Shown: piece after piece, positions 26,120-29,563 of the stretch
Numbering within the stretch: the first letter of the stretch is position 1
How the letters are laid out: each line of letters begins with the position of its first letter
IMG/VR virus record: IMGVR_UViG_3300020215_000110
Span: 1 to 32,397 of that record
Length of the DNA stretch: 32,397 nucleotides
Source of the DNA: a virus
Reading direction: 5' to 3' (one strand)
Position numbers and translations under genes: made by a program
Notes under the pieces: generated by a model
The model's input: the letters and a program-made list of their open reading frames with translations, nothing else
What the model was told of the DNA's origin: nothing
The model's database searches: none

Positions 26120-26490
26120 AGCAAACAGAATTTCTAGAACGAATGAAAGAAATATACGCGGGATGCGTGGAGACCTCGCGCCGGAAGAACACGGACTACT
26201 GTGGAAGCGATGACGCCTTCCATAATTTCAAAGTTTCCGAGCAGCTGGGTATTCCCGTACCTCAGGCGATCTTGGTACGCATGAGCGATAAAATGTCGCG
26301 CGTGGCCACATTGCTTCGCCAAGAGGCACTGGTAGCAGACGAGAAGATCACCGACACGCTCACTGACTTAGCGAACTACGCGATCATTCTCAGAATTTAT
26401 CTAGAGCAACAGAACCGCCCAGCCTTTACGGAGGTCATTCTTCCACATCAGGGAGAAGTAGGCGAAGATCAGCACACACTTGTTCAGTAG
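26116..26490 (+). CDS. DUF1599/Nmad-like nucleotide-associated protein (124 aa)
   Basis: The start at 26116 is set by the ATGA overlap. The protein shows the family pattern KNTDY-x-G...DAFHNF (about 24-38), a Met-rich centre with RMSDKMSRV (about 56-64), DEKITDTLTDLANYAIIL (about 76-93). These are helices of an all-alpha NTP-pyrophosphatase (MazG-like) type fold. Related Nmad1 proteins are linked to modified-base phages. A role in nucleotide pool or base modification is inferred. The 3' end overlaps a minus-strand gene by 56 bases. Confidence 0.8.
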   Translation: MKQTEFLERMKEIYAGCVETSRRKNTDYCGSDDAFHNFKVSEQLGIPVPQAILVRMSDKMSRVATLLRQEALVADEKITDTLTDLANYAIILRIYLEQQNRPAFTEVILPHQGEVGEDQHTLVQ

Positions 26491-26653
26491 ACATCCCCGC
26501 AGGAATACCCCAGCGTCCTTCGTTCCACCACCGTTCAAAGACGGAGTGTTCGCCCTTGCAATACCGACAACGGTACGCTTCTCCACAATCTCTAAAGCTG
26601 ACCGGGTAAAGACCCGAGCACGTGAGGCAGATAAATGTTTCGGCTTGTTTCAT
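26435..26653 (-). CDS. Small zinc-ribbon protein on the minus strand (72 aa)
   Basis: Start at 26653; the in-frame ATG further upstream (26668) would lie in the predicted leader stem. The protein has C-x2-C at about residues 9-12 (CLTC) and CRYC at about 29-32, as in a zinc ribbon. A Trp-rich helix (FERWWNEGRWG) and a helical C-terminus follow. It converges on and overlaps the plus-strand gene by 56 bases. It is one of only three minus-strand genes here, suggesting separate (early or maintenance) expression. The preceding structured leader with its own promoter supports it. Confidence 0.6.
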   Translation of the reverse strand: MKQAETFICLTCSGLYPVSFRDCGEAYRCRYCKGEHSVFERWWNEGRWGIPAGMSTEQVCADLRLLLPDVEE

Positions 26654-26661
26654 AGAAATGC

Positions 26662-26782
26662 GCACCACCGAAGCGAGTTACCGAGTATGAAATGGAGTGG
26701 GAAGACTGGCGCTCCCTATATGTGTGCATCCCGTATGTGAGAACGGTGTGTCAGGTAACAGGAGTCTATTCTTCGGTGGTGC
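26662..26782 (-). ncRNA. Structured leader RNA or small RNA, nested long stems
   Basis: GCACCACCGAAG (26662-26673) is perfectly complementary to CTTCGGTGGTGC (26771-26782). Just inside, GTTACC (26677-26682) pairs with GGTAAC (26754-26759). Together they give 18 bp enclosing about 70 nt with further small stems (GGAG/CTCC, CCGT/ACGG). Read on the minus strand, the 3' arm ends eight bases before the zinc-ribbon ATG, and a promoter (TTGACA, TAGAAT) ends about seven bases before the 5' arm. It would thus be the 5' leader of that gene, a striking exception to leaderless starts. The minus orientation is favoured, not proven. Confidence 0.6.
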
Positions 26783-26789
26783 TGCGTAC

Positions 26790-26815
26790 ATTCTAAACTA
26801 CATCCGGCATGTCAA
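26790..26815 (-). promoter_or_regulatory. Minus-strand promoter of the structured leader
   Basis: On the minus strand TTGACA (26815-26810) is followed after 14 nt by TAGAAT (26795-26790). The short spacer is a weakness. The predicted start, about 26783, coincides with the first base of the long stem. Confidence 0.45.
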
Positions 26816-26821
26816 ATGCGG

Positions 26822-26830
26822 TTATCCCCA
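26822..26830 (+). promoter_or_regulatory. DnaA-box-like sequence
   Basis: TTATCCCCA differs from the consensus TTATCCACA at one base. It lies 128 bases upstream of the replisome-organiser gene. One such match can occur by chance. Confidence 0.25.
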
Positions 26831-26865
26831 CAAATCGGGATTCTGAAATTTTGATGATCGTCAGG

Positions 26866-26874
26866 TGGTATGAT
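26866..26874 (+). promoter_or_regulatory. Extended -10 promoter for the replication operon
   Basis: TGG plus TATGAT ends six bases before ATG 26881, the start of the leader ORF that overlaps the attenuator-like hairpins. Confidence 0.75.
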
Positions 26875-26880
26875 AGACGT

Positions 26881-26955
26881 ATGAGCCAGCGACACTCATT
26901 GATTAATAACGGCGCACATTCCGTCGCTGGCGTGTGCGCCTTTATCAGTTCGTGA
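26881..26955 (+). CDS. 24-codon leader ORF before the replisome organiser
   Basis: A leaderless ATG six bases after the -10 opens a 24-residue ORF that ends two bases before the organiser's ATG 26958. It spans both alternative hairpins. It may be a leader peptide whose translation chooses between them, or simply a way of keeping ribosomes on the leader. The composition (Ser, His, Asn, Ala) shows no run of one amino acid that would suggest a specific sensing role. Confidence 0.45.
   Translation: MSQRHSLINNGAHSVAGVCAFISS
26885..26940 (+). promoter_or_regulatory. Attenuator-like mutually exclusive hairpins
   Basis: Hairpin 1: GCCAGCGAC (26885-26893) with GTCGCTGGC (26923-26931). Hairpin 2: GGCGCACA (26911-26918) with TGTGCGCC (26933-26940), followed by TTTAT. 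The 5' arm of hairpin 2 is in the loop of hairpin 1, and only one base separates the two 3' arms. A pseudoknot is sterically unlikely, so the two should exclude one another. Hairpin 2 could end transcription, though the T-run is short. Confidence 0.55.
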
Positions 26956-26957
26956 GT

Positions 26958-27641
26958 ATGGCACAACGACGAATGTTCACGTTGAAGATTGTAGACAGTG
27001 ATGCGTTCCTCGATATGGGGCAGGGAGCGCAACTCTTGTACTTCCATCTCTCAATGCGTGCGGATGATGATGGGTTTGTTGATAACCCAAAACGGATACT
27101 CAGGATGGTTGGTGGGAATGACGATGATTTGAAAATCCTTCTCGCGAAGCGATTTCTCATCGCGTTCGACTCAGGGATTGTTGTCATCAAGCACTGGCGG
27201 ATGCACAACTACATTCAAAATGATCGCTACTCACCGACGCAGTACATCGAGGAACGCTGCCTTTTACACGTCAAAGAAAACGGGGCGTATACCGACAAAC
27301 CTACTGATGTATCCAAAACGGATACACAGGTTAGGTTAGGTAAGGTTAGGTTAGGTAAGGATACACACTCTCACTCCGTTCGAGACGAGTACGATGAAGA
27401 CTTCACATCATTTTGGAACGCATACCCTAAGAAGGTGGGTAAGGGAGCGGCGTGGAGTGCGTGGAAACGAGCGAAACCACCAGCCACCTCTATCCTTCTT
27501 ACCGTCCTTGAACAGCAAAAAGACAGTGAGCAGTGGACGCGGGAGAATGGTCGCTTCATCCCACACCCTGCAACATGGATTAATCAGAAACGATGGGACG
27601 ACGAGATACACGGTTCGTCCCGTCAGGTAGATAGATTTTAG
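26958..27641 (+). CDS. Replisome organiser/replication initiator
   Basis: ATG 26958 is chosen for its match to the family start (MAQRRMFT...DAFLDM) over the longer frame from 26934. This 227-aa protein has the N-terminal phage organiser pattern with LYFHLSMRADDDGFV (about 30-44). A variable linker carries VRLGKVRLGK (about 124-133), encoded by tandem iterons. A C-terminal part FTSFWNAYPKKVGKGAAW (about 149-166) is common in phage initiators that recruit host helicase loader (DnaD/lambda O-like). The absence of a phage polymerase and helicase here fits recruitment of the host replisome. Confidence 0.85.
   Translation: MAQRRMFTLKIVDSDAFLDMGQGAQLLYFHLSMRADDDGFVDNPKRILRMVGGNDDDLKILLAKRFLIAFDSGIVVIKHWRMHNYIQNDRYSPTQYIEERCLLHVKENGAYTDKPTDVSKTDTQVRLGKVRLGKDTHSHSVRDEYDEDFTSFWNAYPKKVGKGAAWSAWKRAKPPATSILLTVLEQQKDSEQWTRENGRFIPHPATWINQKRWDDEIHGSSRQVDRF
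27309..27367 (+). repeat. Iterons inside the replication gene
   Basis: A 15-bp unit AGGTTAGGTTAGGTA occurs twice in tandem (27328-27342, 27343-27357). It is flanked on both sides by GGATACACA (27320-27328 and 27359-27367), and by an inverted GTATCC (27309-27314). The repeats keep frame (Val-Arg-Leu-Gly-Lys twice). Iterons within the initiator gene are the arrangement of the lambda O origin, so this is a candidate replication origin. Confidence 0.6.
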
Positions 27642-28952: not shown

Positions 28953-29007
28953 CCCTTGCGCTCTCTCAACTCCTCATCACTCGCAAGGCGGTGAGGAGTT
29001 GCAAGGG
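28953..29007 (+). promoter_or_regulatory. Bulged hairpin with alternative pairing before the muramidase gene
   Basis: CAACTCCTCA (28967-28976) pairs perfectly with TGAGGAGTTG (28992-29001), extended by CCCTTG/CAAGGG (28953-28958, 29002-29007) beyond an eight-base bulge. The loop carries a second GCAAGG (28983-28988) that could compete for CCTTGC. The structure ends 16 bases before ATG 29024. Confidence 0.55.
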
Positions 29008-29023
29008 GATCATTACACCTAAT

Positions 29024-29563
29024 ATGAATTATCGAAACACAGAGCATGGAAAGACCACGCTCTACAACAGATTTGCCTTCTGGTTTATCACCTGCGTCAT
29101 TGGAACCCTCATATTCCTCTACGCATGGAAGACCCAGGAGGAAGGAAACAAGGTACACGCTGAAGCACCAAAGCCGATCCTCGTCCAAACAGCATTTGCT
29201 GATACGACGATGGAGGCGAAGGTAGACGCACTAAAAGAAGAAATCCTCGACACACTGATGCAGTGTGAAAGCGCAGGACGAAAGGAAGAAGACGGTATCG
29301 CCATCTTAGACAGCAACGATAAAGGCTCATACGGCCCATTCCAGTTCCAACGAACGACCGTAATGTTCTACATGGAGAAGAAGGGCGAACCGATCAACGG
29401 ACGCGACGCCATTATTCTGGCTTTACAAGGTGACAAAGCACGCGACCTGGCACGCTACGTTATCTTCGAGACCGACGCAGGCGTTGCGAAAGACTGGGTG
29501 AACTGCAATCGAAAGCATGGCCTCCAAACACAAGTAGACCTGATTAAGAAGCTCACGAACTAG
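29024..29563 (+). CDS. Membrane-anchored lytic transglycosylase-like protein
   Basis: ATG 29024 gives a signal-anchor (about residues 15-34) at the start of a 179-aa protein. The lysozyme-like domain (about 65-179) has CESAG with likely catalytic Glu82, LDSNDKGSYGPFQFQ (95-109), and the closing NCNRKHGL (150-157). The same motif set is frequent in Parcubacteria chromosomal proteins, which supports a host in that group. It would cut peptidoglycan from the outside of the membrane, possibly aiding entry, exit or envelope remodelling. It lies far from the endolysin and behind a structured leader, so it may be separately timed. Confidence 0.75.
   Translation: MNYRNTEHGKTTLYNRFAFWFITCVIGTLIFLYAWKTQEEGNKVHAEAPKPILVQTAFADTTMEAKVDALKEEILDTLMQCESAGRKEEDGIAILDSNDKGSYGPFQFQRTTVMFYMEKKGEPINGRDAIILALQGDKARDLARYVIFETDAGVAKDWVNCNRKHGLQTQVDLIKKLTN

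Follow-up and report, generated by a model that had tools for sequence, protein, structure and literature searches.

Is the RNA in front of this phage's replication initiator a regulatory switch, and if so, what sets it? The question arises at positions 26881 to 26957 of the window, by which we mean the whole virus contig of 32,397 bases that was analysed. There, a short leader is flanked on one side by a divergent intergenic region and on the other by the gene that it would control, which encodes a DnaD-like helicase loader, or replisome organiser (26958 to 27641, plus strand; phrog_8489, E = 2e-69). A sequence-only reading had proposed an attenuator, with the position of a ribosome on a short leader peptide deciding whether the replication genes are transcribed. 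We conclude that the RNA before the initiator probably switches replication on and off, and that RNA pairing, and not a small peptide, most likely works the switch. Specifically, we assign a probability of about one half to the reading that positions 26866 to 26957 are the leader next to the promoter of the replication operon and act as a two-state antiterminator/terminator RNA switch set by RNA derived from the leader itself.

The leader contains two interleaved, perfect helices on the plus strand, arranged in the order 1-2-1'-2' across positions 26885 to 26940. Helix 1:1', the candidate antiterminator, joins arm 1 (GCCAGCGAC, 26885 to 26893) to arm 1' (GTCGCTGGC, 26923 to 26931) over 9 bp; helix 2:2', which is terminator-like, joins arm 2 (GGCGCACA, 26911 to 26918) to arm 2' (TGTGCGCC, 26933 to 26940) over 8 bp and holds arm 1' within its loop. 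Both hairpins had been noted from the letters alone, and they are confirmed: such an interleaved pair appeared in 0 of 5000 dinucleotide shuffles of positions 26660 to 26957, none of 1000 shuffles matched as well as arm 1, and shuffles of the entire window produced approximately 0.017 such pairs per strand. A chance origin of the pair is excluded. The claim that the helices cannot coexist also holds, because the single base between 1' and 2' sterically bars a pseudoknot; the H-type pseudoknot that we considered was rejected on the ground that a 1-nt gap cannot cross a 9-bp helix. Directly after helix 2 lies TTTAT, a weak U-tract (26941 to 26945) that had been reported correctly, and the ATG of the organiser at 26958 is 17 nt past 2', not 18 as first counted.

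Folding of the window leader (z = -3.2 for the folded strand) gives a minimum-energy structure at full length in which helix 2 is prolonged downward, positions 26894 to 26910 pairing with 26941 to 26957, to the base adjoining the ATG (-30.1 kcal/mol). RNA that ends at 1' folds as helix 1 (-15.4), and helix 2 takes over only after 2' has emerged. When the first 15 nt were masked, as by the ribosome that the sequence-only reading imagined on the 5' part, helix 2 remained. A simple terminator scan called no terminator in this region of the window.

The transcript is predicted to start near 26881, on the basis of an extended -10 element (TGGTATGAT, 26866 to 26874, plus strand) that is the sole match to TGGTATRNT in the window, is by itself not above chance and has a weak sigma-70 score. 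An extended -10 of the same kind is found in the corresponding position, ahead of stem 1, in four related leaders (L002, L068, L113 and L183). Just upstream of this replication-leader promoter is a DnaA-box-like site, TTATCCCCA, and sites of this type (TTATCCCCA / TTATCCAC) also precede the initiator promoter in L070, L110, L113, L183 and L395. Within the initiator gene, GTTAGGTTAGGTAAGG repeats at 27331 to 27360 (protein VRLGKVRLGK) recur in many relatives, for example L002, L099 and L110, and are possibly origin iterons. Elsewhere in the window, a small cysteine-rich ORF on the minus strand (26435 to 26653; no PHROG match) points away from the replication leader, and positions 413 to 1249 encode an ArdC-like anti-restriction protein that contains a zincin domain (Pfam ArdcN, MPTase-PolyVal).

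Arms 1 and 1', of 9 nt each, occur once each in the window and have no further copies; we rejected the idea that an antisense gene lies at another place in the window, as these arms are absent outside the leader. The window does contain a second copy of the device with other letters (28954 to 29001, plus strand), 22 nt before the ATG of an ORF at 29024 to 29563 that has no PHROG or Pfam match. Here CCTTGCG/CGCAAGG (28954 to 28960 and 28982 to 28988) interleaves with CAACTCCTCA/TGAGGAGTTG (28967 to 28976 and 28992 to 29001). This copy is homologous to the initiator leader of L113 (an equal score was reached in 0 of 2000 shuffles), and on prefix folding its 1:1' gives way to 2:2'; it has no U-tract.

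Searches of viral contigs with DNA patterns made from the arms of the window gave no match, and therefore it is the pairing that is conserved and not the letters. Rfam, at the gathering score, matched none of the leaders from the window and 13 relatives. A first set of relatives, group A, was collected by protein search and one promoter-plus-start pattern, and its initiators start with MAQRRMF. The 1-2-1'-2' layout, with unrelated arm letters, is found upstream of the same initiator in no fewer than eight other leaders (L002, L068, L070, L113, L110, L097, L099 and L183). In L068, for example, the stems are GCTTTGTGA/TCACAAAGC and AGGTAGCAC/GTGCTACCT, followed by TTTTG, and in L183 CTTGTAG/CTACAAG lies within a terminator whose last bases are eight T. 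Most relatives have a canonical terminator as helix 2, a short distance upstream of the initiator ATG, with U-tracts of approximately 5 to 8 T in L068, L070, L183 and the freshwater group described below; the tracts are poor in the window (TTTAT), L002 (TTTATA) and L113 (TTTCG). The complement between the 5' leader and the terminator loop beat its own shuffles (p <= 0.05) in all nine leaders from group A and the window. The longest such complement reached at least 7 nt in 18 of the 20 leaders matched with their own loop, and in 18 of the 380 mismatched combinations.

Prefix folding, which is thermodynamic and not kinetic, has 1:1' forming first and 2:2' later in the window, L002, L068, L070, L113 and L097, and shows no long-lived 1:1' state in L183; the stretch folded for L110 started past arm 1. 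Interleaved matches such as those in L101, L092, L207 and L234 resemble upstream coding sequence and were discarded as chance. In L082 and L109 a terminator-like leader tail (GCCCTTTTTTTTGGAG / GGGCTTTTTTG) stands before a small ORF upstream of the initiator, not before the initiator. Initiator transcripts of L108 and L395 are seemingly leaderless, and in cultured Firmicutes relatives (phage LF1 and a Sarcina plasmid) the initiator sits directly behind other operon genes without such a leader. A last protein scan added 20 more distinct leaders and no clear new member.

The sole host hint for group A comes from L183, found in a metagenome-assembled genome named Candidatus Magasanikbacteria, on a small contig that is possibly misbinned. 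The initiator was present in one of 381 Patescibacteria genomes, namely L183's own. A tail-like protein gave no more than weak matches in that phylum.

Group B, whose initiators are marked by MAERRMFAKTIIDSDAF and whose phages appear from the source studies to be freshwater ones, has leaders of approximately 105 to 114 nt with TTGNNGG in a 5' hairpin loop, a long terminator, and CCNNCAA within the terminator multiloop. Across 11 leaders, 25 pairs were paired in 97.1% of cells, and both sides had changed in 18 of the 25; the covariation score was 0.684, compared with 0.221 for shuffled and at most 0.157 for slid alignments. Both sides had also changed in three of the seven antiterminator pairs, and strong compensatory change is found in both helices. 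In 8 of 10 group B leaders the whole of arm 1 pairs with its own partner, which is true of none of 82 foreign combinations. RNAfold placed every whole leader (11/11) in the terminator (approximately -38 to -44) and every prefix in 1:1' (approximately -16 to -20). Three further, unrelated leaders, L076, L086 and L103, precede the same initiator and follow the same principle: a stretch of the 5' part is complementary to one in the terminator loop, although each leader is singly non-significant (p 0.11 to 0.19). The candidate switch appears both in freshwater phages and, through L183 and its Magasanikbacteria genome, in phages linked to Patescibacteria. Compensatory changes that keep both pairings were what the sequence-only reading had suggested looking for in relatives; its proposal of attenuator-like control of the organiser stands to the extent that exclusive pairings recur with such changes and that relatives have terminators before the ATG.

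Two pairs of near-identical freshwater phages carry unrelated leaders. L079 and L076 share 92% identity upstream, promoter included, and 98% in the initiator gene, with 50% identity in the leader under forced alignment; the corresponding values for L091 and L087 are 96%, 93% and 58%. The first 100 initiator residues are identical within each pair. The swapped stretch is in both cases the last 140 nt before the initiator, in the fashion of heteroimmune phages. Unrelated leader cassettes between near-identical flanks fit an immunity or copy-control determinant, as would be expected of one. A protein that reads the leader would need to change alongside it; an RNA transcribed from the leader does so of itself, and cassette exchange therefore argues for specificity set by RNA. 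Classical prophage immunity is not established, because 10 of the 11 contigs lack a tyrosine integrase.

From these features we infer a cellular folding order, a termination event in the window and a trans-acting RNA, as follows. Helix 1:1' would be the readthrough, or on, state, in competition with helix 2:2', the terminator, or off, state. Emerging RNA would form 1:1' first and trap arm 2, so that a naive template tends to be on. If arm 1 or 1' were kept from pairing in cis, 2:2' would form and expression would halt just upstream of the initiator. The likeliest occupant of these arms would be a further RNA transcribed from the leader: arms 1 and 1' are complementary, and the predicted fold of the terminated form leaves both exposed. 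A short terminated leader, its 5' end offering arm 1 and its loop offering 1', could then bind the nascent leader that follows and make it terminate. The outcome would be a dose-dependent shut-off of the initiator, that is, copy control, together with immunity restricted to phages that share the leader. Shut-off would be by termination given a good U-tract, as in the relatives with long ones. In the window, L002 and L113, termination is perhaps weak; because the U-tract is weak, control in the window may be partly on translation, and its prolonged helix 2, reaching the base at the ATG, might bury the ribosome landing site.

An RNA could also reach the same arms from the other strand. An antisense counter-transcript of the pT181/pIP501 type that binds the leader and favours 2:2' would fit the layout, the site directly before the initiator and the swappable specificity, and there are precedents: in pT181 transcription ends at stem-loop IV, immediately ahead of repC (PMC5703833), and pIP501 uses RNAIII (PMC4981023). 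We nevertheless consider it unlikely, if the best placed of the alternatives. In a search of 19 leaders confined to sigma-70-type promoters, no antisense promoter of the pT181 kind was detected: a minus-strand site exceeded the 95% shuffle level in one leader, approximately the chance rate, and the minus strand near the window leader showed no promoter-like site.

The leader peptide of the sequence-only reading is a poorer candidate still. Its 24-codon ORF (26881 to 26955, plus strand; MSQRHSLINNGAHSVAGVCAFISS and a stop), described as leaderless, is a genuine open frame, whose ATG lies 7 nt past the extended -10. A ribosome on it could select a hairpin or couple translation to the organiser. 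In support of this, the window, L002 and L110 each have an ATG 6 to 7 nt past the -10 and a frame that stays open across the element, and in the window and L002 the frame stops 2 to 3 nt short of the initiator ATG. Against it, L068, L070, L113, L097, L099 and the freshwater group keep the switch and have no start codon at the predicted transcript start; the leader peptides are mutually dissimilar; and the ORF spans both helices, which classical leader peptides do not.

The ATG can also be accounted for by a 5' hairpin, H1, seen on prefix folding (26881 to 26899, plus strand). Its stem, AUGAG/CUCAU, pairs 26881 to 26885 with 26895 to 26899 around loop CCAGCGACA, which holds most of arm 1. Similar 5-bp hairpins are found in L002, L068, L183 and the freshwater group, and the ATG falls in or beside the stem in both the window and L002 (UGAGA/UCUCA). 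A flanking-stem test gave p = 0.10 for the window alone and p 0.02 to 0.19 across the leaders showing H1, so that H1 is weakly significant per leader and suggestive. Because most relatives lack the leader ORF and the ATG falls at the H1 stem, we regard the ORF as no more than a local feature and not as a conserved part of the device. In some members, such as those with the L002 and L110 ORFs, translation may tune the switch; translation cannot be the shared sensor, and control by ribosome position on the peptide is not upheld.

The same two helices could instead respond to a protein or ligand, whether the initiator in autogenous control, a phage regulator or a metabolite. Antiterminator/terminator pairs are typical of such switches, and the lack of an Rfam match leaves room for a new binder. 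We regard this as improbable: leaders unrelated in letters and in shape precede initiators with identical first 100 residues in both exchanged pairs, and no unpaired motif was observed to be conserved across groups. An unregulated structural leader or DNA element, such as an origin palindrome or an mRNA 5' stabiliser, would suit a site adjoining replication genes and the DnaA-box-like TTATCCCCA (26822 to 26830), and has equally little in its favour, since covarying exclusive helices and coding-strand terminators right after a promoter are unexpected of either.

RNA attenuation of replication initiators has so far been known from a few plasmids and the satellite P4. Covarying switches before DnaD-type initiators in many uncultured phages, carried as interchangeable cassettes, suggest that immunity or copy control set by RNA is commoner in phages than protein-repressor models imply. 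We tentatively propose, at somewhat longer odds than the switch itself, a widespread and undescribed class of phage switches in which the sense leader regulates itself in trans via complementary loops, so that every phage would have a replication-control or immunity type of its own, the leader passing as a cassette between phages otherwise nearly identical. In the literature searched, whose mostly open-access coverage makes this weak evidence, such leaders before DnaD-type phage initiators are undescribed. The switch is directly testable with short synthetic leaders, and offers a functional handle on phages whose hosts are hardly culturable.

The remark in the sequence-only reading that attenuation of a phage initiator would be new is partly apt, as RNA-controlled attenuation of replication genes is known in P4, pT181 and pIP501. 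Leader-peptide attenuators of the trp type share the exclusive hairpins and the terminator, and differ in that here there is no conserved peptide or regulatory codon run, the ORF runs through the hairpins, and mostly there is no ORF. For repR of pIP501/pAMbeta1, RNA-induced termination in the initiator leader works through loop-loop recognition (PMC4981023); those systems have a 329-nt leader, the RNAIII promoter pIII and the CopR repressor, none of which was found here. In pT181, a terminator hairpin directly before the repC start codon competes with an alternative leader pairing (PMC5703833), and both features have their like among the leaders studied here; its counter-transcribed RNA, of 87 nt, does not. 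Because no minus-strand promoter stands out, we prefer a P4-like version of the switch over the pT181/pIP501 one. P4 silences its replication genes by ending transcription early, within an untranslated leader, with an effector RNA that is itself leader-derived (PMC4825925). It differs in its initiator and phage type, and in having two target sites and a CI RNA that is processed, where the present element is one compact unit of 60 to 110 nt. As in P4 immunity (CI RNA, seqA/seqC), a leader-derived RNA, here a putative trans-acting one, would pair with complementary sequences in the leader.
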